Below, piece after piece: positions 170 through 46,923 of a stretch of 49,895 nt of DNA. The translations under genes and the position numbers were made by a program. The notes under the pieces were generated by a model that did no database searches, was not told where the DNA came from, and worked only from the letters and a program-made list of their open reading frames with translations. The stretch comes from an uncultured Granulosicoccaceae bacterium (GTDB lineage Bacteria; Pseudomonadota; Gammaproteobacteria; Granulosicoccales; Granulosicoccaceae), in contig CAKZVB010000042.1 of the NCBI GenBank assembly GCA_937922015.1, positions 1 to 49,895 of the forward strand, given 5' to 3'. Numbering within the stretch: the stretch's first letter is position 1; each line of letters opens with the position of its first letter.

Positions 170-359
170 GGAGCCTGCGCTGCAGAACCTCTGCTACTGT
201 GAACGCGCTCTGACAGTCGCCCAGGCAATGGTAATTATCGATCAATTTCGGGGCAATTGAAAAACTATGCGCGTCAAATGATCTTACCATCATTTATTAA
301 ACACACGGGCCCTCGCCATGGCACGTTTTCGCTACGCAGACTTCTGCCGCGCAGGCTCC
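170..359 (+). repeat. Dispersed MITE-like repeat, copy 1
   Basis: A 190-bp copy of an element also present at 10860-11050 and 46734-46923, with part of it at 44869-44931. Its ends are imperfect inverted repeats: GGAGCCTGCGCTGCAGAA on the left and the complement of GGAGCCTGCGCGGCAGAA on the right. The inside is shared with copy 2 at a level easily seen by eye, for example GGGCCCTCGCCATGGCACG near the right end. Reading frames are broken, so it is noncoding. The right end runs into the stop codon of the leftward zincin gene (TAG at 359-361). Confidence 0.85.
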
Positions 360-1855
360 TAGTTATTACAATAGTTTCGACCGGCTTGTTCGAAAGATTC
401 CTCGCCCAGTCTGTTTGCAAAGAAGTCATCTAATTCGGCACTTGGACCAAAAACCTGGCTAACCGCCCATTTGGCACGTTGTGCAACTACAGGGTTGGCC
501 AATCTGTTGCGTACTCCCCATTTTAAAATGAAGTCTGAGCAATTTGGAATAGCGCTGTCCGGGTTGGTATAGAAGCTTACGTTTGTATCAAAATTATATT
601 CGTATTTCAGCATTGTAGAGGCAACAAGGTTGGCGAAATCTTCTTCAATAGTTGTGTGGCTGTACATGCTGATTGCGCCTGATCTCCAAAATAGATTTGC
701 AACTTGTAAAACGTCAATTGAATTGTCTGTGATCACAGTGTTTCGGTCCGGATCAAATGCGAGTGCAATTTTGTTCAGCGTACTTGAGGTGTTGGGGTAA
801 ATTGTCTGGATTTCGTAGGACGGACGATCGCCATATATCGTATAGATAGCATCAAAGATGCTGGCAGCGTAGTTCATGTTTGCAAATGATGGTAGTGGTG
901 CGAAGTCTGCAGCGTGTGCCAGTTCATGGTACAACACCTGATTGCTTGCGAAAAAAACCTCATTGAATGAACGGTTGTTGAAATAATTTGACTGGGCAGA
1001 GAGTGAGAAGTCAGTGCTGCTACCCGATGCTGAATACAGAGTTACAGCGTTGAAGTCCAGACCCGTGTTCGGATCAATTTTTCCCTGTCGTTCAAGGGCT
1101 ATTGTATCCTTCTCTGCTTTAGTTAACCAAAGGTAGTCCGGGTCCACCCAGATAGCAGCATTTACAGGCCAATAGTAGGAGCGTTCAGTTTCACCGGCGA
1201 TTACGATTGCGCTGGTGTAGCGAAACATAACAAGTAGTGATGACGGAGCCAGTGACAGGATTTGCCTAAAGCGTTCCCCCATCCAGTCCTGACTCACGAC
1301 GACTCGATCCATGATTTGATCAACAGAGGGAGTCACGCTGACCATGCCAAGGAATGGGATCTCGTTCATCAGGCAAGAGTCATTGGGCCGGGTAACCAGT
1401 ACGCACCTTTTTATCATGGCCGAATAAGGGCTGTTAATGTTATATGGATAGAGTGAACTGTTTTGCTCAACCGCTGTTTCTGTGCCAACAACACAGCTTT
1501 GACTGTTTTCCCATCCAAAACCGTCACCATCAGGGTCTGATGCTTTGCTAATGCAGGTTGGTTTTCCGCTGGTAGCAGTTGAGTTACCGGATACGATGCA
1601 ACTTTGGTTGTTTTCCCATCCGAATCCATCGCCATCAGGGTCCGAAGTTGAACTTTTACAAGCTGGCTTGCTGCCGGTTGAGCGAGTGTTTGTTGCTACT
1701 ACGCAGCTTTGATTGTTTTCCCAGCCGAAACCATCAGCATCGGGGTCGGACGCTGCGGAATTGCAGGTGGGTAGTGCCGCATTGGCAGACATAGGGCTGA
1801 TGAGCAGTGCCCCGGTAGTTAACAATAGCCCTATAAACAGATTTGTTTTTGCCAT
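359..1855 (-). CDS. Secreted zincin-like protein with three CBM10-like repeats
   Basis: The start is placed at the ATG at 1855, with GGAG upstream; an in-frame ATG at 1891 would add 12 residues. A signal peptide (MAKTNLF..., ending near SANA-ALP) indicates export. Three tandem repeats of about 35 residues follow (residues ~30-125), each with a Cys, an Asp-rich SDPDGDGFGWENNQSC core and a second Cys. This resembles the GWGWENNQSC signature of family 10 cellulose-binding modules, with an added DPDGDG segment that could bind Ca2+. The remaining ~370 residues carry YHELAHAADF (~residues 309-318), a zincin HExxH site, and EEDFA about 90 residues later that could supply a third ligand. It may be a polysaccharide- or biofilm-associated metallopeptidase. 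The peptidase family is not recognised, and activity is inferred from the motif alone. The stop codon borders repeat copy 1. Confidence 0.75.
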   Translation of the reverse strand: MAKTNLFIGLLLTTGALLISPMSANAALPTCNSAASDPDADGFGWENNQSCVVATNTRSTGSKPACKSSTSDPDGDGFGWENNQSCIVSGNSTATSGKPTCISKASDPDGDGFGWENSQSCVVGTETAVEQNSSLYPYNINSPYSAMIKRCVLVTRPNDSCLMNEIPFLGMVSVTPSVDQIMDRVVVSQDWMGERFRQILSLAPSSLLVMFRYTSAIVIAGETERSYYWPVNAAIWVDPDYLWLTKAEKDTIALERQGKIDPNTGLDFNAVTLYSASGSSTDFSLSAQSNYFNNRSFNEVFFASNQVLYHELAHAADFAPLPSFANMNYAASIFDAIYTIYGDRPSYEIQTIYPNTSSTLNKIALAFDPDRNTVITDNSIDVLQVANLFWRSGAISMYSHTTIEEDFANLVASTMLKYEYNFDTNVSFYTNPDSAIPNCSDFILKWGVRNRLANPVVAQRAKWAVSQVFGPSAELDDFFANRLGEESFEQAGRNYCNN

Positions 1856-2092
1856 GCAGGGTACTCCGGTAAAACGTGGCGAAATGAGCATTCGACTCTA
1901 AGATGTCGGGAAAAATGTTGCAATAAACCTTACCTCATTTCTCGGCAGTGATTGCAGTTATTTGTTTTGATGTTGATGTTATTAAGCTGTTGGTTATTTG
2001 TGCTTCCTTTGAACGATCTGAACTTTAGAAAATTCTTCCTTAGTGGTTACTCATCTTTCAATTGAAATAAATTTCTTTGCCCTGCTTCTGTC

Positions 2093-2136
2093 GTCAACTA
2101 AAGTTGACAGAACTATTGTCGTCAACTATGGTTGAC
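2093..2136 (+). promoter_or_regulatory. Two palindromic operators overlapping a promoter of the HTH-ClpN unit
   Basis: There are two 16-bp palindromes 28 bp apart, GTCAACTAAAGTTGAC (2093-2108) and GTCAACTATGGTTGAC (2121-2136). Each sits in a longer direct repeat, TGTCGTCAACTA (2089-2100 and 2117-2128). A perfect -35, TTGACA, lies in the first palindrome (2104-2109). After a 17-bp spacer, TATGGT (2127-2132, 4 of 6 matches) lies in the second. Transcription would start near 2139, the A of the start codon. Autorepression by the HTH protein is inferred. Confidence 0.7.
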
Positions 2137-2138
2137 GC

Positions 2139-2357
2139 ATGCCTGATAAGAAATCACTTCCATCTGCGGACAAACCTGAAGAGGCGCTTGCAGCCGTTGT
2201 TGCGCTGCGTCACATGGCAGACCAGCTGGAAAGAAAAGCAGTTAAAGCTGCAATAGGGCAGGGATGGAGCTGGTCAGAGGTGGCGGAGGCATTGGGTGTA
2301 AGCAAACAGGCAGCGCATAAACGTCACGCGGCCTTGATCAAGAGTTCAAAAGGCTAG
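2139..2357 (+). CDS. Small helix-turn-helix DNA-binding protein, likely autoregulator
   Basis: This is a 72-residue protein, basic at its end. The segment WSEVAEALGVSKQAAHKRHA (residues ~47-66) reads as a helix-turn-helix of the sigma-70 region 4 / small Xre-like type. The N-terminal 40 residues are predicted helical (EEALAAVVALRHMADQLERKA) and may mediate dimerisation. The ATG lies 3 bp after an operator palindrome, there is no Shine-Dalgarno sequence, and the predicted transcription start coincides with the ATG, so the mRNA may be leaderless. The next gene starts 9 bp after its stop and encodes a ClpA/B N-domain protein. Small HTH genes paired with Clp_N genes are known to me mainly from actinobacteria. 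Repression of its own operon is inference from the paired palindromes. Confidence 0.75.
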   Translation: MPDKKSLPSADKPEEALAAVVALRHMADQLERKAVKAAIGQGWSWSEVAEALGVSKQAAHKRHAALIKSSKG

Positions 2358-2366
2358 GGGATACAG

Positions 2367-2873
2367 ATGTTCAAAAGAGTCCGGCTTCGTTTACGGGATA
2401 TGAAAACTATCAGTAAGCTGATAACAGGTGCTGATAAGCATGCGAATAGTTTTGGTGAGGAGAAGCCCGGGGCTGAACATTTTGTACTTTCAGCATTGAA
2501 TTTGCCGGATGGCAGTGCCAGTAGAGTATTTCAAAAATTCGGCATAGATTCGGATAAATTTCGCGAGGCGATAAAGGAGCAATACCGTATAGCGTTGACA
2601 TCCGTAGGTATAGACCCGCAAGTTGTGGAGATTGATCCAGAGCCATTTCAATCTGAAAAGATCTTTAAAAGTTCACAACCGTCCGGTGTAGAGTTGATGA
2701 AATCACTGCACGCACTAAAGGAGCAGGACAAAGATCGACCATTGTCGGGTGCGCACGTTATTGCTGTAGTTGCCAGCCAGGAATTTGGTGTAACAGCCCG
2801 GGCATTAAAGGTGTTAGGGGTTGATCGGGATGATTTATCCAATGCGCTTAGAGAGGAGCTTAAGTCGATTTAA
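2367..2873 (+). CDS. Stand-alone ClpA/ClpB N-terminal-domain (Clp_N) protein
   Basis: This 168-residue protein has the two-repeat fold of the Clp N-domain but no AAA+ module. Repeat one spans about residues 12-75 (GAEHFVLSALNLPDGSASRVFQKFGID resembles the EHLLLALL...ALGID pattern; only part is typical). Repeat two spans about 100-165 (SGAHVIAVVASQEFGVTARALKVLGVD). AGGGGA is 5 bp upstream of the chosen ATG; a second ATG at 2400 is possible. It is translated with the HTH gene 9 bp upstream. Clp N-domains bind adaptors and substrates of ClpAP/ClpCP/ClpB, so this protein may act as an adaptor, decoy or substrate receptor. That role is inferred. Confidence 0.75.
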   Translation: MFKRVRLRLRDMKTISKLITGADKHANSFGEEKPGAEHFVLSALNLPDGSASRVFQKFGIDSDKFREAIKEQYRIALTSVGIDPQVVEIDPEPFQSEKIFKSSQPSGVELMKSLHALKEQDKDRPLSGAHVIAVVASQEFGVTARALKVLGVDRDDLSNALREELKSI

Positions 2874-2948
2874 AGCCAAGTCGTGGTCTGCCCGTCAACG
2901 AAGGAATACTCCTGTGACCAGCCGGAATACACATACAGGGTGTGAGAA

Positions 2949-3557
2949 ATGAACGAAGAGAGATGGAATAGATTAATGACAGCCGCAGGTCTTGCGCAGT
3001 CTTCAAGTTGTTTTCACTCACTGCTTGCTGCGTATTCTGAAAAGCATCGACACTACCACACGGTGAGCCATATTGACGCGATGCTCGGAAATCTTGATGC
3101 TGCAGGGGAACTGGCAGCCAATCCCTGTGAGATAGAGATAGCCATCTGGTTTCATGATGCGATATACAAACCGTTTTCAAAAACCAATGAACATGATAGT
3201 GCCGACTGGGCACAGGACTTTTTAAGCAAGGCCGGATACAACGGGAAAGGGATCGACACAATTCACGGATTAATAATGGCTACACTGCATGGCAGCAAAT
3301 TGGTGACAGCAGATGAAGAGCTAATTGTAGATATAGATCTTTGTATTCTCGGTGCTGAAGAAGAAATTTACGATCAATTCGAGGTGAATATACGAAAAGA
3401 GTACCGCTTAGTACCAAAGCCGCTGTACAAGAAAAAACGAAAAGAAATTCTCAATATGTTTTTAACCAGAGATCGAATCTACAATACCGAACAATTTTAT
3501 GATCTATATGAAAACAGTGCCAGAGCCAATCTTAGTCGAACAATAGCGACCCTTTAG
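2949..3557 (+). CDS. HD-superfamily metal-dependent phosphohydrolase-like protein
   Basis: This 202-residue protein is of the COG4339 type. It carries the signature HYHTVSHIDAML (residues ~36-47) followed by IAIWFHDAIYKP (~67-78), which supplies the His-Asp pair. A later IHGLIMATLHG (~98-108) and VDIDLCILG (~120-128) add His/Asp residues expected for metal binding. The length is usual for this family. The substrate is unknown; family members are annotated as predicted HD hydrolases of nucleotides or phosphoesters. It follows the ClpN gene by 75 bp on the same strand and may share its transcript, but the gap makes this uncertain. Confidence 0.8.
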   Translation: MNEERWNRLMTAAGLAQSSSCFHSLLAAYSEKHRHYHTVSHIDAMLGNLDAAGELAANPCEIEIAIWFHDAIYKPFSKTNEHDSADWAQDFLSKAGYNGKGIDTIHGLIMATLHGSKLVTADEELIVDIDLCILGAEEEIYDQFEVNIRKEYRLVPKPLYKKKRKEILNMFLTRDRIYNTEQFYDLYENSARANLSRTIATL

Positions 3558-3708
3558 ATGTTGCCCTTTTAAAGCTAAGCTGACCTGGCGACATATCATG
3601 AAAAATCATGACCCGGTTGCGACGACATGATGTGCCTGGTACATTTTTCCGCAAAGCGCTACAGCGCTGTTATCCCAAACAAAGCGGCCACTCTACAAAA
3701 CAAATAGC

Positions 3709-3736
3709 AAAAAAAAGGCGCTACAAGTAGCGCCTT
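3709..3736 (-). terminator. Rho-independent terminator of the BMP transporter operon
   Basis: A perfect 9-bp stem, AAGGCGCTA (3715-3723) with TAGCGCCTT (3728-3736), encloses a 4-nt loop. Read leftward it ends in a run of eight T (3709-3716 on this strand are A). It lies 25 bp after the stop of the substrate-binding protein gene. Confidence 0.9.
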
Positions 3737-3760
3737 CTAACTGCAAAATATCTCAACCCA

Positions 3761-4858
3761 TTACTTCGGCAATGACCCCTCAATCCCTTTAACATACCAA
3801 TCCATAGAAACAAGCGTAGGAAAATCTGTCAGGTGCTTTCCATCACCGGCACAATCTTCCGCCAGGGTATCGTCCTGCTTATAGACAGGGCATGGAAAGG
3901 AATGTCTCTCGCCTGAACGCAGGCTTTCCTGCAGTGCTTTGGCTTCTGCTACCAGATCTTCAGGTAGGTTACCGTAAGAGGCAAGTTCAACCATTCCAAC
4001 GCCGTTGCCAGCACCGTCTTTCGAGAGTCCCCACCAGGTATCTGTTTGTGCCCAGGTGCCATCCAGTACTGCGGCCACGCGGTCTATGTAGTAGCTGTCC
4101 CAGTTATCGACAATAGATACAAGGTGACTGGTTTCACCAAAGCGCGACATGTTGGATGCCTGACCAAATGCATACACACCGGGGTGTTTTTCTGCAATTG
4201 TCATGGCCGCGGGGCTATCGGTGTGTTGAACAATGATGTCAGCACCTGCGTCGATAAAAGCTTGTGCGGCTTCTGCTTCTTTGGCCGGGTCGAACCAGGT
4301 GAAAACCCATTTTACATCTACTTTTGCGTCCGGGTTGTGCTTTGCCAGTTCCATTTGAAACGCGTTGATGCCGCGAACCACTTCCGGGATAGGGAAAGAG
4401 GCAATGTAACCAATCTTGTTGGTCTTGGTCATTTTTGCTGCGAGTAGTCCCTGTACTACTCGACCCTCATAGAAGCGTGCGGAAAACGTTGATACGTTGT
4501 CTGACTCGCGTTTGAATCCAGTAGCGTGTTCGAATTTAACATCCGGGTACTGTTTGGCCACTTCGTTTGTGGCGTCCATAAATCCGAAAGAAGTCGTGAA
4601 GATAAGGTCGTGACCGGTCTCTGCCAGTTGCGTGATTTGTTTTACGGCCTCTGCACCTTCTGGTACGTTTTCGATAAAGGTGGTTTCTACCTTGTCGCCG
4701 AATTCTTTTTCGATCGCCAGGCGACCGATGTCGTGACGATAAGTCCAGCCCAGATCCCCTACTGGACCTACATAGATGAATCCGACTTTGGTTTTATCGG
4801 CGTGTGCGGCTCCACCCAGTAGCAGGGTAGCGGCGGTAGCGAGTAGTAGTTTTTTCAT
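3761..4858 (-). CDS. BMP-family ABC transporter substrate-binding protein
   Basis: This 365-residue protein has a clear signal peptide (MKKLLLATAATLLLGGAAHA, cleaved before DKTK). The mature start KVGFIYVGPVGDLGWTYRHD is the hallmark of the BMP/Med/PnrA family of periplasmic nucleoside-type receptors. Other family features are TTSFGFMD (~residues 88-95), a repeated IGYIASFPIPEVVRGINAF and the IIVQHTDSPA segment. Family members bind purine nucleosides, and some relatives bind other small solutes, so the ligand cannot be fixed here. It is the last gene of an ATPase-permease-permease-receptor operon and is followed by a strong terminator. The start is supported by the signal sequence. Confidence 0.9.
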   Translation of the reverse strand: MKKLLLATAATLLLGGAAHADKTKVGFIYVGPVGDLGWTYRHDIGRLAIEKEFGDKVETTFIENVPEGAEAVKQITQLAETGHDLIFTTSFGFMDATNEVAKQYPDVKFEHATGFKRESDNVSTFSARFYEGRVVQGLLAAKMTKTNKIGYIASFPIPEVVRGINAFQMELAKHNPDAKVDVKWVFTWFDPAKEAEAAQAFIDAGADIIVQHTDSPAAMTIAEKHPGVYAFGQASNMSRFGETSHLVSIVDNWDSYYIDRVAAVLDGTWAQTDTWWGLSKDGAGNGVGMVELASYGNLPEDLVAEAKALQESLRSGERHSFPCPVYKQDDTLAEDCAGDGKHLTDFPTLVSMDWYVKGIEGSLPK

Positions 4859-4890
4859 GTTGCGCGTTTTCTCTGTTGTGTCCGGTGCGG

Positions 4891-5871
4891 TCAGGACGGT
4901 GGATTAAATAGTTTACCAAGGGAAGCGGGTGCGCTTTGGCGTATTGTGCCCGGGCTGCGCGAAATAATGACCAGTACAAGTATCGTAAAAACATACGGTG
5001 CGGTGGTCAGCAGCGTTTTCCATTCAAGTTGCCAGTCAGGGAATAAGTTGTCGAAGCGCAGTTCTGAGGCCCAAAGCAGTCCGAAGATGTAGGCACCACA
5101 CAAGACTCTCAGCGGTTTCCATGTGCCGAACAGTATAAGCGCCAGCGCCAGCCAGCCTTTACCAACGGTGACGCCTTCTTTCCAGTCTACGTGCACCAGT
5201 ACGATGAATGCGCCGGCAAGGCCTGCCATCGCGCCACCGAACAGTATGCAGTAAAAACGTATCTTTGGAACGTTATAACCCAGCGCATAAGCGCTGTCAT
5301 GGTTTTCGCCTACTGCGCGGATAACCAGTCCTGTGCGTGTTCGCTGCAGCACGTACCAGATGGCTGGCACCGCAATTAGTGACAGCCATACGAGTAGATC
5401 CTGGCCCAGTATCTGCGGGTGATCGGCGACTTGTACTGAGGTGTAGTTTACGCCCAGAAAATTACTGCCCAGGGAGTTACTTAGGCCGGCACCGAGGATG
5501 CTCAGGCCCAGCCCGACGGCAACATGGTTTGCTCTAAGACCCTGGGTGAGAAAGCCGAACACGGCGGCGAGCATTGCACCGGCAGCGGCGGCGGCCAGCA
5601 GTGCCACCAGGTAGTCTGCAAAGGTGAAAATGCGTTCCTCTTTCTGGCAGAAGCCGGGAATTAGTTCTTCGAGGCAGGTGATACTTTGCATATTGTAGGC
5701 GGCAATATATCCGAACAGCGCACCGATCAGCATCATGCCCTCGACTCCCAGATTTAATACCCCGGACTTCTCAACGACAAGCTCACCAAGGGCTGCGAGC
5801 AACAATGGTGTGGCGAGTAAGACAGCAGCCGTGAGCAGCTTTAATAAAAATGCCAGTGTGTCTGGGCTCAT
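4891..5871 (-). CDS. ABC transporter permease, BMP/nucleoside type, second subunit
   Basis: This 326-residue, strongly hydrophobic protein has about 8-9 membrane spans. It carries the branched-chain-like permease signature GELVVEKSGVLNLGVEGMML (~residues 26-45) and LRANHVAVGLGLSILGAGL. These are typical of the YufQ/NupC-type partner that forms a heterodimer in the inner membrane. Its ATG overlaps the stop of the upstream permease gene (ATGA at 5868-5871), so the two are translationally coupled. It pairs with the gene at 5868-6968 to form the channel for the solute delivered by the BMP receptor. Confidence 0.9.
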   Translation of the reverse strand: MSPDTLAFLLKLLTAAVLLATPLLLAALGELVVEKSGVLNLGVEGMMLIGALFGYIAAYNMQSITCLEELIPGFCQKEERIFTFADYLVALLAAAAAGAMLAAVFGFLTQGLRANHVAVGLGLSILGAGLSNSLGSNFLGVNYTSVQVADHPQILGQDLLVWLSLIAVPAIWYVLQRTRTGLVIRAVGENHDSAYALGYNVPKIRFYCILFGGAMAGLAGAFIVLVHVDWKEGVTVGKGWLALALILFGTWKPLRVLCGAYIFGLLWASELRFDNLFPDWQLEWKTLLTTAPYVFTILVLVIISRSPGTIRQSAPASLGKLFNPPS

Positions 5872-6968
5872 GAGGTTGCCTGTTTTTTTACGGCCGGTGA
5901 GCTGGTTAATTTTATGCGGTATTGATCAAGCATTGCGGTGCTTAAGAAAGCGAAAAGTGCGGTGACTTCTATGAGGTCTGCGACTGAGTCATCGACACCA
6001 AGTGATGCCTGTATATAAGAGGCCCCTACGTTCACGTAGGAGATCATGAACGCGGCGAGAAGAATGCCGATAGGATGGAGTCGGCCAAGAAAGGCGATGA
6101 CGATGGCTGCAAAGCCGAAGTTTTCGAGGTAGTTTTCTGCCTGTATCAATTTACCGGTTTCTGCAGTGAGGTACACAGCGCCGGCCAGTCCGGCCATGGC
6201 ACCGGAAATTAAGAACGAAAGCCATACGGTATTGTCTGGTGAAAACCCTGCGAAGCGTTCAGCGCGAGGGGTGTGTTGTGCGACACGTAAACGATAACCC
6301 AGCAGAGTGAACAGTAAAATGATCGCCAATAGCGTGAAGGCTGCAAATAGTATTAGCAGGCCGCTATGTAATTCAGTGCCTGAAATAAAGGCTTCGGGTC
6401 GAATGCTATCAGCCATCGGGTAAGTCTCTGCCTGGCCGGCTTTCGGGTCGCCTTTCCATGGTCCGATACACAGATAGGTCAGTATGTGGCTGCCGATGTA
6501 GACCATCATCAAAGAGGTTAATAGCTCATTGGTATTGCAGGTGATACGCAATGCGGCAGGAATAAGTGCCCAGAGACATCCGCCGATCACACCTGCCAGC
6601 AATATAAACGGCAGTGCCCACAATCCATCCGGGCTGCCAAGTGCTAAATAGCCGGCGTAGGCGGCTATTGAGCCCAGTGCGAACTGACCTTCAGCACCTA
6701 TGTTCCAGACATTGGCTTTAAAGCCGACGGCCAGGCCGATGGCAATCACTGACAAATAGGCAGTTTGTTGAAATACCAGTCCGAACTGAACTTCTATTCG
6801 TCGTCCCTGCCAGGGGAAGGTCAACATTTGCCAGATCGCGTCGGCGGGTCTGTCGCTCATGACGAGTAGCACCAACAAAGATATGCAAGCTGTGATCGCC
6901 AGTGCAATTGCACTTGAGCGCAGGCTTGTCCACAGGGTGATGTCAGGTCTGGGTTCGAGTGTGAACAT
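5868..6968 (-). CDS. ABC transporter permease, BMP/nucleoside type, first subunit
   Basis: This 366-residue polytopic inner-membrane protein is of the YufP type. Its signature region is FKANVWNIGAEGQFALGSIA (~residues 83-102), and ISGAMAGLAGAVYLTAETG follows near residue 255. A cytoplasmic N-terminus precedes the first span. It starts one base after the ATPase gene (TGA, C, ATG) and overlaps the next permease by four bases, so this is a tightly coupled operon. Length and order match known nucleoside importers of this class. Confidence 0.9.
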   Translation of the reverse strand: MFTLEPRPDITLWTSLRSSAIALAITACISLLVLLVMSDRPADAIWQMLTFPWQGRRIEVQFGLVFQQTAYLSVIAIGLAVGFKANVWNIGAEGQFALGSIAAYAGYLALGSPDGLWALPFILLAGVIGGCLWALIPAALRITCNTNELLTSLMMVYIGSHILTYLCIGPWKGDPKAGQAETYPMADSIRPEAFISGTELHSGLLILFAAFTLLAIILLFTLLGYRLRVAQHTPRAERFAGFSPDNTVWLSFLISGAMAGLAGAVYLTAETGKLIQAENYLENFGFAAIVIAFLGRLHPIGILLAAFMISYVNVGASYIQASLGVDDSVADLIEVTALFAFLSTAMLDQYRIKLTSSPAVKKQATS

Positions 6969-6969
6969 G

Positions 6970-10705: not shown

Positions 10706-10729
10706 CGTCTACTTTCCCATGTAGTAAAC

Positions 10730-10758
10730 AAAAAAGCCCTGCACTGCAGGGCTTTTTT
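10730..10758 (+). terminator. Terminator after xsc
   Basis: The stem GCCCTGC (10736-10742) pairs with GCAGGGC (10746-10752) around a 3-nt loop. Six A precede it and six T follow, so it can work in both directions. It starts 25 bp after the xsc stop. Confidence 0.92.
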
Positions 10759-10859
10759 GTCTTACTGCCCGGAAACACAAATAAACTGGGTGTCTGTCGC
10801 AAATTCGGTTCACAACTCAGCTGAATAATGCTGGCTCGAATTGAGATTGATACACCCCG

Positions 10860-11050
10860 GGAGTCTGCGCTGCAGAACCTCTGCTACTGCGAACGCGCCC
10901 TGACGGTGCGCCCAAGGCAACGGTAATTATCGAGCATTTTCGGGGCAATTGAATAACTATGCGCCTCAAATGATCGTACCGTCATTTAATAATGACAAGG
11001 GCCCTCGCCATGGCACGTTCTCGCTACGAGACTTCTGCCGCGCAGACTCC
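10860..11050 (+). repeat. Dispersed MITE-like repeat, copy 2
   Basis: A 191-bp copy with the clearest ends: GGAGTCTGCGCTGCAGAA at the left and the complement of GGAGTCTGCGCGGCAGAA at the right (17 of 18 positions agree). It has the same orientation as copy 1 and is inverted relative to copy 3. It lies between the xsc terminator and a TPR gene, about 60 bp before that gene's start, so it could affect that promoter. Its frames are closed by stops, so it is noncoding. Confidence 0.87.
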
Positions 11051-12633: not shown

Positions 12634-12650
12634 TGTTGAGAACCTACTTC

Positions 12651-35546: not shown

Positions 35547-35548
35547 GG

Positions 35549-39190: not shown

Positions 39191-39413
39191 AGTGATCATT
39201 TTTTTTATTTTTTTAGTTATTGGACGGTTAAAACTTCCGTCTCATCGATCGTGGTAGCAGGACGGGTATCGGCGCGGCTGCAAAACCTTGAGGTGTAGAC
39301 TTATAAAGTTTTGCTAGGAATTGCCTGAAGTGAAGTGTCAAGTTGCTTGTAAATAAAACAGAAACTGTTACAACAAGAGGCGTGCTGTTGATGGATTTTG
39401 AGTTTACAAGCCC

Positions 39414-40430
39414 GTGAATTATGTGACCATGTTGGGAAAAAAATGGCATCTGCAACCAGGTTTGCAGGTGTTGATTCTTCGTTCTGAGCTGGCCACATTG
39501 GGGGCATGTGGAAACAAACAGTACAAACTGGCCAATAATATTACGCAGCTAAAAGAACGTGGTTGTAAGGCGGTTTTAAGCTTTGGCGGAGCGTGGTCAA
39601 ATCATCTTCACGCACTTTCGGTACAAACGCGGTTACAAGGGATGGAATTTGTCGGCATAGTTCGTGGCGATGCAGGTGTGAGCAATGAGCTGTTAACCGC
39701 CGCACGTCGTAATGGCATGCGCCAGGTCAACATTTCGCGTGCTGATTATCGACTACGACATGACCCTGACTACTGTCTGCGATTGTGTTCAGATTATCAT
39801 TGTGATCACTGGCTGCCTGAGGGTGGCTCAAACGACGCGGCGGTTGACGGGTGTAAAGAAATACTGAGGTTAACGGGTAGCGTGGCGCAACCACCTGATG
39901 TAATCGTAGTGGCAGTGGGCACCGGGGCAACACTGGCGGGTATCGTTTGCAGCGCTGATAAAACTCAATCTGTTATTGGTTTGCCTGTGGTTCGCGATCC
40001 TTCAGTAGATGAGAAGATTGCCAGATGGATTGAGCAGGATGCCATTCGGCAGGGGACTGATGTCGCGGCTTTCGCAAACTGGCGATTAGCTGATCCATTG
40101 AAGCCCGGCTACGGCAAGGCAGACCCGGCACTAATAGAATTTATTTTAAAAATTTACGACGACACCGGAATCGTGCTTGATCCGGTCTATACGGGCAAAG
40201 CGCTGAAGCGCATTCTGGCGGCTGACTTTACGGACGAACTGCCCCCCGACACACGAATGGCTTTTGTTCATACTGGCGGGCTGATGGGCAACTTCGGTTT
40301 CAGGAAACAGTTTCTACAAGCTGGCAGTACTGAACTGGTAGAGCGTTACTTCGCTTCTGTTAATGGATTACTGGAATCTGGTATTACCTGTCCAGAAACA
40401 AAGGCTGCTGCGAATCGCTCAGGCGAGTGA
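39414..40430 (+). CDS. PLP-dependent ACC-deaminase/D-cysteine-desulfhydrase-family enzyme
   Basis: This 338-residue protein starts at GTG 39414 with a weak Shine-Dalgarno sequence. It is a fold-type II PLP enzyme. LRSELATLGACGNKQYKLANNI (~residues 23-44; only part is typical) holds the PLP Lys in GNKQYK-like context. LSFGGAWSNHLHALSV is the phosphate/substrate loop, and VAVGTGATLAGIV is the Gly-rich PLP-phosphate loop. Candidates are D-cysteine desulfhydrase or 1-aminocyclopropane-1-carboxylate deaminase; the sequence cannot decide. It stands alone. Confidence 0.85.
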   Translation: MNYVTMLGKKWHLQPGLQVLILRSELATLGACGNKQYKLANNITQLKERGCKAVLSFGGAWSNHLHALSVQTRLQGMEFVGIVRGDAGVSNELLTAARRNGMRQVNISRADYRLRHDPDYCLRLCSDYHCDHWLPEGGSNDAAVDGCKEILRLTGSVAQPPDVIVVAVGTGATLAGIVCSADKTQSVIGLPVVRDPSVDEKIARWIEQDAIRQGTDVAAFANWRLADPLKPGYGKADPALIEFILKIYDDTGIVLDPVYTGKALKRILAADFTDELPPDTRMAFVHTGGLMGNFGFRKQFLQAGSTELVERYFASVNGLLESGITCPETKAAANRSGE

Positions 40431-40539
40431 TCTCTCACGGGCCACAAAAAGTTATGCTAAGAGTGACTGGGCGCTGTTGCAGGCAAACTACACCGGCCTG
40501 TGTGATTCTTGTCAGGCCGCTGTTTCCGGATGGCACAGG

Positions 40540-40833
40540 TTAGTCCCCGCGTTGTCCGGCATCGTTGACAAATTCTTCGCGTAGTTGGCGGTATTTGTCA
40601 AAGTCCTGAAAATAGGATCGGTCACAGGCAGTAAAAGCAACCTGGTCTACCTGCTCGTTTATGCATTCGGCGGCACGCAGGTAGCCGTAGGTAATCTTGT
40701 ACAGCGTTTCTCGATACGGAATATTGGCGGAGGAGGCGCAACTGCACAGGACGCTGCAGGATGCTGCGCTGAGGCAGATTCTTTTAAGCAGGCCGGGGCT
40801 GATGCCAAATCCGCAAACCTTTATTATTTTCAT
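40540..40833 (-). CDS. Small lipoprotein-like protein
   Basis: Read from ATG 40833 it gives 97 residues with a signal-like N-terminus (MKIIKVCGFGISPGLLKRI...), then SCSVLCSCASS, where one of the Cys could be the lipidated residue. The mature part (~60 residues) is IPYRETLYKITYGYLRAAECINEQVDQ..., of no family I recognise. It lies alone between two rightward genes, with the opposite strand. Its conserved-looking lipobox argues for a real gene, but it could be a chance frame. Confidence 0.5.
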   Translation of the reverse strand: MKIIKVCGFGISPGLLKRICLSAASCSVLCSCASSANIPYRETLYKITYGYLRAAECINEQVDQVAFTACDRSYFQDFDKYRQLREEFVNDAGQRGD

Positions 40834-41051
40834 TAGTAGTTTGCGATGCTGGTGTTGGTGGCAACATACGAGAGTTATCAGCATACAATTGTTACTAAAT
40901 GTATAATTGAATGTGAAATTGGTTAATATTACCGATGATTTTCTGTTTGGTAATTGTGAGTGGTGAAAGACAGCTGCAAATACGCTATGTTGATCGGCTG
41001 TTTTGACTAATGATAAATGGTACTAACAGTCCATAGTACAGGATATTTATA

Positions 41052-41711
41052 ATGAATCGATCGTCCGGAAACCTGCTGTTGTTTTTTGTTGTGCCCGTTG
41101 TATTGTTGCTCAGTAGTTGTGCGTCCACTTATTATAATGCGTGGGAGAAAGTCGGCTACCACAAGCGGGATATTCTGGTCAGTCGGGTTGAAAATACCCG
41201 CGACTCACAGCAGGACGCGCAAGTAGAATTTAAAGATGCTCTCGAGCAGTTCGGTTCTATCGTGACGTTACAGAACACCGATTTGGCGCGGGCCTATGAA
41301 AAGCTGAGTGCTGAATACGAAGACAGTCAGGAAGCAGCACAGGAAGTCACTGATAGAATAGACAGCGTTGACGGGGTAGCCACTGCGCTGTTTAAAGAGT
41401 GGCAAACTGAAATCGAGCAATTTACCAACGCTGATTACAAGCGCAGCAGTACTGCACAATTGCGCCAGACCCGGTCGCGTTATGACGGAATGTTATCAAG
41501 TATGCGCAAGTCAGAGGCGAGCATGAAGCCGGTTCTCGATACGTTTCGCGACAATGTTCTGTTTCTCAAGCACAACCTTAACGCTCAGGCGATTGGTTCA
41601 CTGAAAGGTGAGTTTGCCTCCCTGCAGGATGATATTGCCGTACTGATTCGTGAAATGAACCGATCAATCGCCGAATCGGATAAGTTCATTGCCGACTTGC
41701 GCAGTAGCTAG
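41052..41711 (+). CDS. DUF2959-family lipoprotein
   Basis: This 219-residue protein has a lipoprotein signal (LLLFFVVPVVLLLSSC, then ASTYYNAWEKVGYHKRDILVSRV), the opening typical of DUF2959. The rest is long alpha-helix with coiled-coil character (EDSQEAAQEVTDRIDSVDGVA, DTFRDNVLFLKHNLNAQAIGSL). Function is unknown; it is a periplasmic or outer-membrane lipoprotein. It is 115 bp before an outer-membrane barrel gene, so both may be envelope partners. Confidence 0.88.
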   Translation: MNRSSGNLLLFFVVPVVLLLSSCASTYYNAWEKVGYHKRDILVSRVENTRDSQQDAQVEFKDALEQFGSIVTLQNTDLARAYEKLSAEYEDSQEAAQEVTDRIDSVDGVATALFKEWQTEIEQFTNADYKRSSTAQLRQTRSRYDGMLSSMRKSEASMKPVLDTFRDNVLFLKHNLNAQAIGSLKGEFASLQDDIAVLIREMNRSIAESDKFIADLRSS

Positions 41712-41826
41712 ATTCCGGCCCTTTGTTATAAGCCCCGGTTGAACTATTCCGAGTGTTGCCGATAACTTTAGTAGTGACAGTGCCCGGCAACTGGATCGGG
41801 CAGCCAGATCAAACTAAGAGAACAAA

Positions 41827-42615
41827 ATGATGCGCTCCTTTGGAATTCGTGCAGGTAGAAAGTTGTTGGCGACGGTGCTTGTTGTTTCAGCCTCGGCAGC
41901 AGCGCCCCTGGCGTCTGCGGACACCTTATTCGGACTTTTCGCAGGTGCCAGCATGTGGAAGCCGGAGTTGAAGGGTACGTTTGGACAGTCTAGCGATGCT
42001 TTTGATTCTTCCGGCGACTTTGACGGTGGCGATTCAGATACTCGTTCGTTGTACGTGGCGCTTGAACATTTTATTCCGCTGGTACCGAATCTAATGATCC
42101 GTACCACGCCTGTTGGCTGGACTGGAAACTCAGACGAAGCCTCCGGTACTCTGGGCGGGTTAATAACGCTCAGTGGTGAAGTATCTGCCGAAATGGATGT
42201 CGATATGCAGGACGCGACCTTTTACTACGAGTTGCTGGATAACTGGGTATCGCTTGATGTGGGCCTGACCGCCAGACGGCTTGATGGTTTTCTGGTAGCA
42301 ACTGAGACAACCACACAGAATACTGATCGTGTTGAATTGAGCAGTACTATCCCGATGATTTACGGCCATGCGCGTTTTGATTTACCCTTTAGCGGTTTGG
42401 CAGCGGGCGTGCGTGCTAACGGGATTGGTTTTAAAGACAGCACGCTGGTGGATATGGAAGCCTACCTTCACCTTGAGGTTGATTTACTGCCAGCCGTCGA
42501 TTTTGGTATTCAGGGTGGGCTACGTCGCCTGAGTCTTGATATTCAGGATTTAGACGATTGGAGCTCAGATGCCAGTCTTGACGGGGCCTATGTTGGATTG
42601 ACAGCTCACTTTTAG
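41827..42615 (+). CDS. TIGR04219-like outer-membrane beta-barrel protein
   Basis: This 262-residue protein has a signal peptide (MMRSFGIRAGRKLLATVLVVSASAAAPLASA, then DTLFGLFAGASMW). DTLFGLFAGASMWKPELKG and FIPLVPNLMIRTTPVGW are the family marks I recognise. The C-terminal half alternates strands (AYLHLEVDLLPAVDFGIQGGLRRL) and the protein ends in F, the usual barrel insertion signal. An ATG at 41830 is one codon inside. Function is unknown. It follows the DUF2959 lipoprotein. Confidence 0.85.
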   Translation: MMRSFGIRAGRKLLATVLVVSASAAAPLASADTLFGLFAGASMWKPELKGTFGQSSDAFDSSGDFDGGDSDTRSLYVALEHFIPLVPNLMIRTTPVGWTGNSDEASGTLGGLITLSGEVSAEMDVDMQDATFYYELLDNWVSLDVGLTARRLDGFLVATETTTQNTDRVELSSTIPMIYGHARFDLPFSGLAAGVRANGIGFKDSTLVDMEAYLHLEVDLLPAVDFGIQGGLRRLSLDIQDLDDWSSDASLDGAYVGLTAHF

Positions 42616-42680
42616 CTGACCATCGCCCAAGCAACCCCCGCATCGACATATGTTTTTGCGTCAGATACAACGCGGCTGTT

Positions 42681-44369
42681 TCACTGCTGTTTGTGTATCA
42701 GAGTTCTGCCTCGATCCAGAGTCAAGCTAAGTAGTATGACAGGGATAAGTCCGGTCAATACGATAAGCAAAGCGGCGAGTGCACTCTGTTCTATTAACTC
42801 ATCAGAAGCCAGTTGATAGACGTGAGTCGCCAGTGTGTCGAAGTTAAACGGACGCAACAGCAATGTGGCTGGCAGTTCTTTCATGCAATCGACAAACACC
42901 ACCAGTAACGCTGTCAGAATGCCGCTGCGCATAAGCGGTATGTGGACATGCCAGAGCATAGTAGAGGGCTTTTGGCCCAGAGATCGTGCAGCCATATCCA
43001 TGCTGGGGGTGATTTTAGCGAGGCTTGATTCTACTGATCCGAACGCGACAGCGAGAAAGCGCACGACATAGGCAAAAATGATAACGAATACCGTGCCGGT
43101 GAATAGAAGTCCGGTAGAGACGTTAAAGTAATCACGCATAAAACTGTCTATGGTGTTGTCCAGCGCTGCAAAGATGATCAGTATTCCTATCGCCAGCACA
43201 ACGCCCGGCAGTGCATAGCTGGTGCTGGCAAGTCGGGTGCAGGCCTGCAATAACCTGCTTTTTTTAATGCGCGCACTGTAAGCCAGGAAGACGCCAAGGC
43301 CGACAGCAATGACGGCAGCGACAGCCGATAGTAAAAGACTGTTGGTCGCGGTTTCCCGGAATTCTTCGGTCCATGATATTTCAAAGTATCTGATCGAGTA
43401 GTCTGTAAGAATAATAAACGGAATGATAAAGCCCAGAAATATCGGGATCGCGCAGCAAAGAAATAGTATTGCGTTTTGCCACCCCGTTACCCGTACCCGT
43501 TGCATGCTGCGGAAACGACTGGATGTCGGCAGGAACTGTTTCTGATGTTTTCGACCAAAGCGTTCAAGAAATAGCAGCAGCAATACGAACATCAGTAACA
43601 GGCACGAGATTTGGGCGCCACCGCTTAAGTTGCCCATGTTTTGCCAGACATCAAAAATACCCGCGGTTAGCGTATGCACGGCAAAGTAATCGACAGTACC
43701 AAAATCGTTTAAGGTTTCCATCAGCGCCATAGCCACCCCCACTGCAATTGCGGGGCGTGCCAGCGGTAAAGAAATTGTAAAAAAACTGCGGCCTTTTGGT
43801 TGTCCCAGCACCCGTGCGGCTTCAAGCAATGAGGCGGATTGTTCCAGAAATGCAGATCGTGCCAGCAGATACACGTAGGGGTAGAGCACTAACACCATCA
43901 TTATTGTTGCACCGCCCAGTGTGCGGATCTTTGGAAAGTAATAATCAGCTGCGGATTGCCAACCAAAAATAGAGCGCAACATGGATTGGACAGGGCCGGA
44001 GAATTCAAGCAGCTCGGTGTAAACAAAAGCGATTACATAGGCAGGTACGGCAAACGGCAGTAACAAAGCCCACACAAAAACGCGGCGGCCGGTGAAATCG
44101 TAGTGAGTGACCAGCCATGCGGTTGAGACGCCGATTACCAGCGTGCCGAGGGCAACACCGGCCATCAGCACAAGGGTGTTGAATACATAGTGCGGCAACA
44201 CCGTGGATATCAGGTGCGGCCAGACGTTTTCAGTCGGAAACAACGCCAGCCTGGCCACGGCGAACAGCGGCAGGCAGATCATCAGAGCGATCAGGATGGC
44301 AATCACGGTGCTGAATTCCGTGCGGTTTCTCCTGGTTGCCTGACTGGCGATAACGTCGGTTGAGCTCAC
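42681..44369 (-). CDS. Iron(III) ABC transporter permease, FbpB/HitB-like
   Basis: This 562-residue, roughly 12-span inner-membrane protein carries two permease halves in one chain, as in FbpB of the ferric-iron uptake family. LLLPFAVPAYVIAFVYTELLEFSG (~residues 97-120; only part is typical) and RLASTSYALPGVVLAIGIL are the paired family segments. Each half has an EAA-type loop (LLEAARVLGQPKGRSFFTISLPLARPAI; AARSLGQKPSTMLWHVHIPLMRSGI). A Fur-box-like palindrome lies 75 bp upstream, so iron control is likely. Neither the ATPase nor the binding protein is adjacent in the window. Confidence 0.9.
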   Translation of the reverse strand: MSSTDVIASQATRRNRTEFSTVIAILIALMICLPLFAVARLALFPTENVWPHLISTVLPHYVFNTLVLMAGVALGTLVIGVSTAWLVTHYDFTGRRVFVWALLLPFAVPAYVIAFVYTELLEFSGPVQSMLRSIFGWQSAADYYFPKIRTLGGATIMMVLVLYPYVYLLARSAFLEQSASLLEAARVLGQPKGRSFFTISLPLARPAIAVGVAMALMETLNDFGTVDYFAVHTLTAGIFDVWQNMGNLSGGAQISCLLLMFVLLLLFLERFGRKHQKQFLPTSSRFRSMQRVRVTGWQNAILFLCCAIPIFLGFIIPFIILTDYSIRYFEISWTEEFRETATNSLLLSAVAAVIAVGLGVFLAYSARIKKSRLLQACTRLASTSYALPGVVLAIGILIIFAALDNTIDSFMRDYFNVSTGLLFTGTVFVIIFAYVVRFLAVAFGSVESSLAKITPSMDMAARSLGQKPSTMLWHVHIPLMRSGILTALLVVFVDCMKELPATLLLRPFNFDTLATHVYQLASDELIEQSALAALLIVLTGLIPVILLSLTLDRGRTLIHKQQ

Positions 44370-44443
44370 GGAGTGTTTTAGCTGTGTGGTGGGGGCAGAC
44401 GGAGCATTAGCTATTATTCTTATTCAAACCAAATGTAGAGATT

Positions 44444-44463
44444 AATGCGAATTATTCTCATTT
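44444..44463. promoter_or_regulatory. Fur-box-like operator
   Basis: AATGCGAATTATTCTCATT is a 9-1-9 near-palindrome resembling the Fur consensus GATAATGATAATCATTATC. It sits 75 bp upstream of the start of the iron permease gene at 44369 and about 130 bp upstream of the small rightward frame at 44592. Fur repression of the permease under iron sufficiency is inferred. Confidence 0.7.
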
Positions 44464-44591
44464 GCAATAGCAATTAGCGTCATTTAAAAAACACAAAGCC
44501 GTGTACTCTTCGGATTTATGATCTTTGTCTCAGATTCTTTACAGTAAAAATGGAACAATATGTAATGCAAAGTTTACAAGAGGAAGAGGTA

Positions 44592-44810
44592 ATGCAATCT
44601 ATCCGAAAAATGCAAAACCGTAAGGAAAACCCGACAGGTGAGCTGATACTGTCGCGTGGATCAAGTTTCCCCCGGATACAGAACGTCCCGGATTCATTCG
44701 ATTGCGATTTTAGTCTGGTGCCTGTTGACGACCATAGTTTGCAGGCAGATTCAGCTGAGCGCCGGGTTATCGGTAAAAGAACCTCGTTACAAGACTTCAC
44801 TTTCGAGTAG
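44592..44810 (+). CDS. Short uncharacterised open frame, possible iron-regulated small protein
   Basis: An ATG at 44592 follows AGGA with 7-bp spacing and gives 72 residues (longer starts at 44550 and 44565). The product MQSIRKMQNRKENPTGELIL... is hydrophilic and has no family I recognise; the frame ends with LQDFTFE. It lies downstream of the Fur-box-like site on the divergent side. It is weakly supported and might be chance. Confidence 0.3.
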   Translation: MQSIRKMQNRKENPTGELILSRGSSFPRIQNVPDSFDCDFSLVPVDDHSLQADSAERRVIGKRTSLQDFTFE

Positions 44811-44868
44811 TGTTTCGGGGCAATACACCGGTTGGCGACAAGACTGTCCACCGGCAACTACCTGACCA

Positions 44869-44931
44869 GGAGTCTGCGTGGCGGAGGCTCTGCAACTGCA
44901 GGCCGCGCTGACGGTGCGCCCAAGACGATGG
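44869..44931 (+). repeat. Dispersed MITE-like repeat, partial copy 4 (left end only)
   Basis: GGAGTCTGCG and the following ~60 bp, including GCGCTGACGGTGCGCCCAAG, match the left part of copy 2. The rest of the element is missing. It lies just past the stop of the leftward Mth938-domain gene (TAG at 44938-44940), with the lost right end toward that gene. Confidence 0.75.
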
Positions 44932-44937
44932 CTCTGG

Positions 44938-45306
44938 CTAGAACACGATCACTGCAGCGCCGACATTGCGATCTTCCGACACCAGCAGGTTATAGGTTCT
45001 GCATGCCGCCGCTGTGTCCATGATATCCAGTTGAATTTGTTTTTGCATCAGGGCTCTGCGCAGCTCTACCGATGGAAAATCCTGTTCGGCGCCGGTGCCG
45101 AGAATGATTATGTCGGCCCGACGTTCGATAAACGGTTCGAAGTCGTCGACTTTCAGTTCATTGACATTTTTGATATTCCATTCCTGCAGGCTATCGGGAA
45201 AAATTAGCAGGCTGCTGTGGTGAGGCTGTTCGTTAACCGTTAATGCCCCGTTTCCATAGTTACTGAAAACGTATTTGCCTTGCGGGTCGTCCAGGGAAAA
45301 TTTCAT
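44938..45306 (-). CDS. Mth938-domain (DUF498/NDUFAF3-like) protein
   Basis: The start is placed at ATG 45306 (MKFSLDDPQGK), giving 122 residues; a TTG four codons upstream is also in frame. It is a single Mth938-like domain: FSNYGNGALTVNEQPHHSSLLIFPD near the N-terminus (only part is typical), ADIIILGTGAEQDFPSVELRRAL (~residues 65-87) and the end RNVGAAVIVF. The relative NDUFAF3 helps assemble mitochondrial complex I, but bacterial function is unsettled. It is divergent from hom, with repeat copies outside both genes. Confidence 0.88.
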   Translation of the reverse strand: MKFSLDDPQGKYVFSNYGNGALTVNEQPHHSSLLIFPDSLQEWNIKNVNELKVDDFEPFIERRADIIILGTGAEQDFPSVELRRALMQKQIQLDIMDTAAACRTYNLLVSEDRNVGAAVIVF

Positions 45307-45399
45307 GTTTTCGTTCAATTGCTGTGACCTTGGTTATAATAGCCTGCACAGATCGCTTGGCCTATCCCCATGGGCAGATCTCTTCACTCAATATAAGAG

Positions 45400-46734
45400 A
45401 TGTTTTCGGAGCTGGACAGTAAATTGAATCCCGTAAAAGTTGGTTTTATAGGCTTTGGCACAGTCGGACAAGGTGCCGCTGCCGTGATGGTCAGAAATGC
45501 GTCAGAGATTAGTCGTCGGGCAGGGCGGGATATCATCGTAAAGTCTGCCGCAGTGCGCGATATTAGTCGTCAACGAGCGCCGGAGCTGTGTGAGATAGCT
45601 CTCACTGCAGATGCCTGTGAAATAGTGAACGACCCTGACATCGATGTCATTGTTGAAGCGATGGGTGGGGATGAGCCGGCACGAACGCTATTGCTGCAGG
45701 CCATTGCGAATGGCAAGCATGTGGTGACGGCCAATAAGGCACTGATTGCCGTCTACGGAAACGAGATCTTTGAAGCCGCACGTGAGCATAGCGTCAGTGT
45801 GGCTTTTGAGGCCGCGGTAGCGGGTGGTATACCGGTGATAAAAACCATCAGGGAAGGTCTGGCCGGAAATAAGATCCAATGGCTGGCTGGCATTATCAAT
45901 GGCACCAGTAACTATATTCTGACTGAAATGCGGGACAAGGGCCGTGACTTTGCCGATGTCCTGGCGGAAGCGCAGGCGCTTGGTTATGCCGAAGCCGATC
46001 CGACCTTTGATGTTGAAGGTATCGACGCTGCGCATAAGTTGACTATTCTGGCGTCCATCGCGTTCGGCATACCTCTGCAGTTTGACAGTGTATATACAGA
46101 AGGCATCAGTCATATCACTCAGGAAGACACCGCCTTTGCCCAGGAGCTTGGTTACCGGATAAAACATTTGGGGCTGGCCCGCGACACCGGCAATGGCATC
46201 GAGTTGCGTGTGCACCCGACGCTTATTCCTGAACGACGGCTTATAGCGAACGTTGACGGTGTCATGAATGCGGTTCTTGTACAGGCAGATGCAGTAGGAC
46301 CGACGCTCTATTATGGTGCCGGCGCCGGGGCTGAGCCAACAGGATCAAGTATTGTGGCAGATGTGATGGATGTGGTTCGTGTGGCCAGTGCTGCAGTAGA
46401 TAACAGAGTTCCTTCTCTGGCGTTTCAGCATGATGCCTTGAATCAATCACGCACCGTTGTCAGCAATGAATTTGAGACGTCGTACTATCTGCGAATTCTG
46501 GCCGAAGACAAGCCGGGTGTGATGGCGGATGTCACTCGTATTCTGGGTGATGAAGCAATTAGTATTGAGGCAATCATTCAAAAAGAACCGGCAGATGGCA
46601 CAAGTAAAGTGCCGGTCATCCTGCTGACCAGAAAAATTGTCGAGGGTGCTATGGAGAGAGCTATATCGAAGATAGAAGAGCTCGATTCAATTGAAGGCTC
46701 TGTCACCAGAATCAGGGTGGAAAGCCTGGGCTAG
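45400..46734 (+). CDS. hom: Homoserine dehydrogenase
   Basis: This 444-residue, stand-alone (monofunctional) enzyme of aspartate-family biosynthesis reduces aspartate semialdehyde to homoserine. VGFIGFGTVGQGAAAVM (~residues 14-30) is the NAD(P) site, VTANKALIAVYG and AGIINGTSNYILTEMRDKG are the catalytic-domain signatures, and EADPTFDVEGIDAAHKLTILA follows. A C-terminal ACT domain (SYYLRILAEDKPGVMADVT, ~residues 358-376) is the usual threonine-sensing part. thrC, the usual next gene in gammaproteobacteria, is missing. Its TAG stop lies at the very start of repeat copy 3. Confidence 0.96.
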   Translation: MFSELDSKLNPVKVGFIGFGTVGQGAAAVMVRNASEISRRAGRDIIVKSAAVRDISRQRAPELCEIALTADACEIVNDPDIDVIVEAMGGDEPARTLLLQAIANGKHVVTANKALIAVYGNEIFEAAREHSVSVAFEAAVAGGIPVIKTIREGLAGNKIQWLAGIINGTSNYILTEMRDKGRDFADVLAEAQALGYAEADPTFDVEGIDAAHKLTILASIAFGIPLQFDSVYTEGISHITQEDTAFAQELGYRIKHLGLARDTGNGIELRVHPTLIPERRLIANVDGVMNAVLVQADAVGPTLYYGAGAGAEPTGSSIVADVMDVVRVASAAVDNRVPSLAFQHDALNQSRTVVSNEFETSYYLRILAEDKPGVMADVTRILGDEAISIEAIIQKEPADGTSKVPVILLTRKIVEGAMERAISKIEELDSIEGSVTRIRVESLG

Positions 46735-46923
46735 GAGTCGGCTTGGTAGAAGTCTGCGTAGCGAGAAAGTGCCATGGCGAGGGCCCTTGTCTTAATAAAT
46801 GATGGTACGATCCTCAGAGGCGCATAGTTATTCAATTGTTCCGAAAATGATCGATAATTACCATCACCCTGGCGCACCGTCAGGGCGCGTTCGCAGTGGC
46901 AGAGGCTCTGCCGCGCAGACTCC
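46734..46923 (-). repeat. Dispersed MITE-like repeat, copy 3
   Basis: A 190-bp copy in the opposite orientation to copies 1, 2 and 4. Its sequence on the reverse strand runs GGAGTCTGCGCGGCAGA... to ...GCCGACTCC; the end next to hom is diverged (GGAGTCGGCTTGGTAGAA). One frame is open through the copy, but copies 1 and 2 have stops there, so this is not read as a gene. The flank to about 46951 also resembles the flank of copy 1. Confidence 0.85.

Follow-up and report, generated by a model that had tools for sequence, protein, structure and literature searches.

The stretch of DNA considered here, referred to as the window, comprises positions 1 to 49,895 (49,895 nucleotides) of contig CAKZVB010000042.1, assembly GCA_937922015.1, from an uncultured Granulosicoccaceae bacterium. 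It carries three full copies and one truncated copy of a dispersed element that is bounded by terminal inverted repeats and folds into a long hairpin. The copies, and a repeat that adjoins the first of them, are listed below; for full copies the strand is the one bearing the conserved hairpin motif, termed the folded strand.

145-170, plus strand: end of a T2 repeat (a second CTAG-bounded family, with other ends), adjoining copy 1
170-359, folded strand minus: copy 1, 190 bp, flanked by CCAG on the left and CTAG on the right
170-187, plus strand: terminal inverted repeat of copy 1, of the GGAGYCTGCGCKGCAGAA type, with its partner at 342-359 on the minus strand
10860-11050, folded strand minus: copy 2, 191 bp, flanked by CCGG on the left and CAGG on the right
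44869-44931, plus strand: truncated copy, consisting of one 18-bp end (3 mismatches) and part of the 3' arm, preceded by CCAG
46734-46923, folded strand plus: copy 3, 190 bp, flanked by CTAG on the left and CCGG on the right

The right-hand CTAG of copy 1 holds the TAG stop of a minus-strand open reading frame (ORF) at 359-1891 (510 aa, with CBM_10 domains), while the left-hand CTAG of copy 3 provides the TAG stop of a homoserine dehydrogenase gene (45400-46734) that is full and intact. Copy 2 is placed between a sulfoacetaldehyde acetyltransferase gene and the ORF of a TPR protein. A first-pass annotation had located the three full copies and the partial one from the letters alone, listing copies 1 and 2 on the plus strand and copy 3 on the minus strand; re-reading and alignment recovered all of them, with 172 (copies 1 and 2), 160 (1 and 3) and 169 (2 and 3) identical positions over 190-191 (84-90%). 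When up to 3 mismatches are allowed, there are 6 instances of the 18-bp end in the window, where 0.03 would be expected and 100 shuffles gave 1 at most. The annotation's view that the reading frame is interrupted in two copies and the element noncoding holds as well, the frame being open for 63 codons in copy 3 and for at most 52 and 49 in copies 1 and 2; nothing suggests that the element is coding.

The genome to which the window belongs (5.03 Mb in 332 contigs, 80.6% complete, the window contig being C42 of G000) contains 168 matches to the 18-mer end with at most one mismatch, and none to the reversed pattern, which bears out a wide spread that had previously been surmised from local density. 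A DNA search of the same genome scored the best 40 of 169 first-look candidates as matches, and several contigs terminate within element copies. The size classes are mainly 162, 175-178 and 190-192 bp; compared to the 162-bp class, the 178- and 191-bp classes have extra sequence in both stem arms that still pairs by eye, and the stem seems to have been lengthened on both sides simultaneously. Among 57 genomes searched at the DNA level, matches were found in the genome itself, in 11 of 13 congeners, in one of 22 genomes of the same family and in none of 21 of the same class. Named genomes contain the exact 18-mer pattern in at least 112 stretches, whose titles are largely those of Acidobacteriota, Beta- and Gammaproteobacteria; it occurs in no viral contig, and plasmids and phages gave no blastn match to the element.

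The general form of the element is CTAG-GAGYCTGCGC...GCGCAGRCTC-CTAG. In 102 end matches of the genome with enough flanking sequence, the flank is CTAG in 61, CCAG in 18, CTGG in 7 and CCGG in 7, and many copies carry CTAG on both sides. The non-CTAG flanks are thus mostly transitions at the middle bases; a change from CTAGG to CCAGG would be compatible with very-short-patch repair. CTAG itself is scarce in the window (13 sites versus 62 expected from a Markov estimate). The clearest trace of insertion comes from Massilia aquatica (locus L096), where one element is nested within another, at the latter's apical CTAG, and is bordered by CTAG on either side; removal of the inner element and one CTAG leaves an outer element of 162 bp that is identical to the inner one at 162 of 162 positions. 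The flanks and the nested copy thereby answer the question of the target-site duplication, which the first-pass annotation had left unsettled, as CTAG, although the sequence would look alike whether 4 bp (CTAG) or 2 bp (TA) had been duplicated. The element is therefore short, multi-copy, bounded by terminal inverted repeats, without a gene and associated with a target duplication (in L096), as is a bacterial miniature inverted-repeat transposable element (MITE), and the earlier proposal of a MITE-like mobile element is borne out by its many copies, matched ends, CTAG flanks and nested copy.

A palindromic target was also considered through the inverted symmetry of the flanks of 84 elements, five of which score 8 or more (null mean 1.8, maximum 6). 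Since these high scorers include the special cases L171 and L022 (T2 on both sides), the nested L096, and L011, a possible assembly fold-back, no general palindromic-target rule follows. L011 lies near the end of contig C50, and its two flanks are perfect inverted copies of each other for at least 30 nt. The T2 repeat is itself CTAG-bounded, about 242-275 bp long, with ends CTAGCCYGSATTATTCAYRAGG and 73 end matches in the genome (in the window at 12-28 and 145-170; elsewhere at L165-L172). It adjoins the element at a common CTAG in 14 of 37 elements of this genome, L171 having the arrangement T2-element-T2, and a T2-like end likewise adjoins an element on an Acidobacteriota chromosome (L035).

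The search for an insertion sequence (IS) with matching ends, which the first-pass annotation had proposed, identified members of the IS1182 family in other genera and none in the element's own genus. Three pairs of ends lying approximately 1.53-1.54 kb apart (L107, L058 and L076) flank an IS1182-type transposase, at CTAG; carriers of IS1182 with ends of the element's type are Aquincola and Janthinobacterium (one mismatch in one end). The transposase of L107 scores 370 bits against the IS1182 model NF033551 (cut-off 270) and both of its ends are exact, while those of L058 and L076 are 66% identical to it and have one exact end, the other with one mismatch. In addition, a shortened IS1182 gene lies between two exact ends in L116, a partial one is next to a single exact end in L074, L048, L088, L064 and L053, and in genome G095 a fragment of IS1182 adjoins a window-type end. 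For other end types, genome G117 (L297) has a full IS1182 ORF between GGAGGCTGTCCGAGAA ends together with a hairpin element with near-identical ends, and fragments lie beside similar ends, not of the window's type, in G068, G330, G276 and G318. The possibility that the interior of the MITE is a piece of such an IS was rejected, as a model search of 39 IS1182 loci detected no hairpin within any IS (a hairpin element lies nearby at two). Because no matching IS1182 was found in its own genus, the mover in the genome of the window is one that we infer.

The interior of the element, of approximately 125 nt, corresponds to a long irregular hairpin; the apical stem is AUAG/CUAU, and the conserved internal loops number three (AGC-GA opposite GCA-G; GAG opposite GGCC; and UUUGAGGCG...AACGA). 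Elements with dissimilar stems mostly share a length of about 160-163 bp and have recurrent short motifs roughly 27 nt in from their ends; the motif-pair score reaches 10 or more in 22 of the 36 named-genome elements listed, versus a rate of 0.0017 for shuffled interiors. In alignment A2, which like A3 contains 21 of the elements found, 90.1% of interior cells are paired and 32 of 38 pairs have changed on both sides; none of 500 shuffles matches any of five measures, and sliding the partner lowers pairing to 30-41%. (Forty-two elements had a length of 159-166 and a motif score of at least 5; among those left out of A2 and A3 were L038, L059, L096, L122, with a weak motif, and L072.) A further alignment, A4, whose 44 rows were not used in building the model described below but were fitted to its structure, has 88.7% of cells paired and 33 of 37 pairs covarying, with none of 500 shuffles equalling it. 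It draws on the loci L266-L294 other than L277, in which one end is recognisable (28 of 29), on all 8 loci from Bacteroidota and on 4 of 20 from Acidobacteriota, and includes two partial minus-strand matches, one of which is the opposite strand of an element already present (L326). Paired columns thus covary, as in structured RNAs, in both A2 and A4, and unpaired loop letters are kept across phyla while paired letters change. Since kinship among sequences inflates the shuffle test, the slide and strand tests weigh more.

The two strands of the hairpin are not equivalent. In the window, the folded strands have energies of -83.0, -92.3 and -76.4 kcal/mol, as compared to -73.1, -79.7 and -66.4 for their complements, and in all 76 elements with a clear motif (out of 90, oriented by the motif and not by energy) the motif strand folds more stably than its complement, with a mean difference of 16 kcal/mol. 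In a second set of 29 loci from the phylum search described below, the motif strand folds better in 29 of 29. Where a non-Watson-Crick site stands alone between pairs that are predicted on both strands, G.T outnumbers A.C by 192 to 7 overall, by 24 to 1 in 12 representatives with less than 80% identity (p 1.5e-6, with sites taken as independent), and by 47 to 11 in the second set. The upkeep of a double-stranded palindrome should give no such bias, and this indicates that one strand has been selected to fold. The alternative that the first-pass annotation had put forward, a folded intergenic repeat, is thus equally true of this mobile element in view of the covariation and polarity of its interior, and the fold is the more interesting half of that reading, its conservation across phyla not being visible without tools.

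That conservation was revealed by a covariance model built from interiors alone, without ends (R1; E up to 1e-4), which matched genomes in three phyla: 47 of 299 genomes of the element's own phylum (its own included), 39 of which belong to one family (f51) outside its class; 7 of 297 Acidobacteriota (including the centre genome, an Acidobacteria); and 8 of 296 Bacteroidota (the phylum of a Chryseobacterium). These phylum searches employed stricter filters, and one locus each was read from 29 of the 46 other matching genomes of the own phylum. Terminal inverted repeats with at least 14 of 20 matches bound 27 of these 29 loci, and C[CT][AG]G stands at the 5' end of 24 loci and at the 3' end of 22; their end sequences, such as GGAGGCTGTCCGAGAATA, GGAGTCTGTCGGACTTAA and GCAGCCTGTCGGCCTTAA, differ from those of the window. 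Six Acidobacteriota loci were printed, four with window-type ends and two with the other ends. Among the 8 Bacteroidota loci, L345-L347 have IS1182-like CTAG ends, or close to these, on at least one side, the others having other inverted ends or weak scores. In L348 and L349 the model matches lie inside wholly different inverted repeats (of the TGAACTCGTTTAAACTTTT type) and not at CTAG; the hairpin is perhaps carried there by another IS group.

With up to 150 candidates scored per genome, the model counts at least 95 copies in the Acidobacteria genome jk18x1bzbins.39, 34 in Dokdonella, 33 in Tamilnaduibacter salinus DSM 28688, 22 in the Gammaproteobacteria genome Milos-ODIII6 and 11 on the chromosome of Acidobacteriota bin529; it finds none in 6 of the 18 genomes counted, including those of Chryseobacterium, a Myxococcales, M. 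fuscus and Aquincola. The 4227 models of Rfam gave no match above threshold at an element in the window and 15 loci. Below threshold, MIR7504 (32.4 bits versus 83) and MIR7807 were noted at the element of L266, and a true tRNA is present in L077, away from the element.

Taken together, it is likely that the element is a MITE of the IS1182 group, inserted at CTAG by an IS1182-type transposase, whose interior is selected as a single-strand fold, probably an RNA that serves the element. Movement by IS1182-type transposases and selection on a single-stranded interior structure are each well supported, while the assignment of the folded strand to RNA, as opposed to single-stranded DNA, is one that we infer. 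According to this model, an IS1182-type DDE transposase, presumed here to be the mover, would recognise in trans the 18-20-bp terminal inverted repeats and insert the element into CTAG, leaving CTAG on both sides; the interior of about 125 nt would be selected to fold as a single strand of fixed polarity, and the putative RNA would serve the element and not the neighbouring gene. It could, for example, engage a conserved host factor of RNA handling or transcription, making insertions tolerable or raising mobilisation. The conservation suggests that the hairpin itself does something, and its function would lie along such lines.

A number of observations weigh against this interpretation. Copy 2 has no exact CTAG on either side, the IS1182 of G117 is flanked by ATAG and not by CTAG, and the nested arrangement of L096 is a single locus from a draft assembly. 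No IS1182 transposase was found in the element's own genome. IS1182 matches occur in 6 of 14 genomes of the genus; the six intact IS1182 genes, from three congeners, have no element-type end (up to 5 mismatches) in the right orientation, four of them having other inverted ends and two none that was recovered, and among 13 congeners no IS1182 with the element's ends was found. Such absences are tempered by the tendency of metagenome-assembled genomes (MAGs) to lose repeated IS. The Bacteroidota, meant as a negative control, returned 8 of 296 genomes, which casts doubt on the specificity of matches near E values of 1e-4 to 1e-6. The sign tests take related elements as independent, and G.T pairs better than A.C in single-stranded DNA too, which weakens the RNA assignment. 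Finally, 8 of 90 elements with the same ends are without the hairpin motif, and the transposase therefore seemingly needs no hairpin. Massilia-type elements of 150-151 bp and Thermoanaerobaculum elements have the same ends and no motif, as do L087 7357-7516 and L091 6210-6369, from a Myxococcales MAG, which display a one-strand folding advantage of about 30 kcal/mol.

The same data can be read in other ways. The fold could act as single-stranded DNA, extruded from one strand during replication or transfer and serving as a hairpin substrate for a protein, as in the repetitive extragenic palindromic (REP)/TnpA-REP, IS200/IS605 and attC systems. Strand polarity is just as compatible with this, the processing of REP hairpins that bear conserved mismatches is strand-specific (in the consulted portion of PMC8266576), and the structure of MRSC-65-2 may matter as DNA according to the accessible part of PMC11109978. 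The ends and the duplicated CTAG, in contrast, indicate a DDE transposase acting on double-stranded DNA, and the E. coli REPs treated in that portion of PMC8266576 are very much shorter than the elements. A replication-strand bias was sought in Tamilnaduibacter and rejected: of its 33 model copies 28 were examined, and the 25 within the stretches fetched are split 11:14, as judged from 20-kb GC skew only. A role as single-stranded DNA is thus possible, if unlikely. MITEs often contain long palindromes, and the element could be an ordinary one, a functionless inverted duplication whose covariation stems from common descent and from palindrome upkeep through correction templated by the hairpin; the elements clearly share ancestry, and kinship inflates the shuffle tests. 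Such upkeep is strand-blind, yet G.T exceeds A.C by 24:1 and 47:11, and the loops keep their letters from phylum to phylum while those of the pairs vary, making this explanation rather improbable.

It is also conceivable that the host uses the fold as a regulatory or stabilising RNA at gene ends, in the manner of 3' untranslated elements of the REP or bacterial interspersed mosaic element (BIME) kind. An element end sits exactly on the TAG stop of a gene in 24 of 93 typed ends of the own genome (15 of 47 on the 5' side of the folded strand and 9 of 46 on its 3' side) and in 34 of 180 when other genomes are included, copies 1 and 3 among them; the nearest own-genome ORF points toward rather than away from the element in ratios of 31:16 and 27:17 on the two sides, a leaning to gene 3' ends. 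CTAG is nevertheless scarce, three other CTAG sites in the window also terminate ORFs, and the target rule alone may place elements at stops; because CTAG contains the amber codon TAG, insertion at the C-TAG end of a gene leaves the protein intact. A sense-strand role at stop codons was rejected, since the folded strand is not preferentially sense, either at stops (21:13, p 0.23) or over all genomes (50:41 and 44:41). Host use is accordingly very improbable, and as the folded strand has neither a gene nor a replication preference, selection seems to act on the element and not on the neighbouring gene.

A MITE with a selected single-strand fold, the preferred reading, is of wider interest because the interiors of MITEs are usually regarded as filler. 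Here the hairpin outlasts the ends: in Pseudomonadota, Acidobacteriota and some Bacteroidota, the same strand-specific fold is enclosed by differing terminal repeats, suggesting a MITE superfamily with a conserved single-strand structure, probably RNA. More tentatively, and with a greater chance of being wrong than right, miniature IS1182-type elements in at least three phyla may share one conserved RNA that acts with the transposase or with a universal host factor, in which case DDE transposition or tolerance of the element would depend on RNA and the ends would be replaceable. The element is a selfish one in which selection on a structured nucleic acid can be put to the test, and the covariance model provides a means of finding more.

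No description of this element was found in the literature searched, including by end sequence, which brought up three papers on clinical resistance isolates. Several known systems resemble it in part. E. coli REPs and BIMEs with TnpA-REP are likewise dispersed hairpins with conserved mismatches and one privileged strand; they differ, as far as the consulted portion of PMC8266576 goes, in their length of 29-37 nt and their HUH transposase, the present element having 160-191 bp, inverted repeats and CTAG on both sides, a size that does not fit a short GTAG hairpin. With the IS1182 family (NCBIfam NF033551) it shares its ends and CTAG in L107, L058 and L076, and near-identical ends in G117, while it carries no transposase and the IS searched contain no hairpin; for the family member ISPse1, the values 1653, 16/16 and 4 in the excerpt of PMC3281130 are taken as length, inverted repeats and duplication. 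MITEPsy1 of Pseudomonas syringae, a mobile 100-nt element proposed to derive from ISPsy2, is also a short MITE with 18-nt inverted repeats and a 4-nt duplication (CTAG/YTAA); its length and end sequence differ, and the part of PMC3189936 that describes it mentions no conserved fold. MRSC-65-2, as presented in the available text of PMC11109978, comprises a long single covarying stem with dozens of copies per genome in diverse phyla, sometimes near a transposase gene, and the long covarying stem, multiple copies and diverse phyla are also true of the element. Its UYCCGG repeat is present in none of 76 elements on either strand; in the second set it occurs at least once on some strand in 5 of 29, and twice on the folded strand in none of 29. 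The element is set apart from MRSC-65-2 by this description, and the MRSC class, which in the same text has 249 other candidates, is the nearest published idea found.

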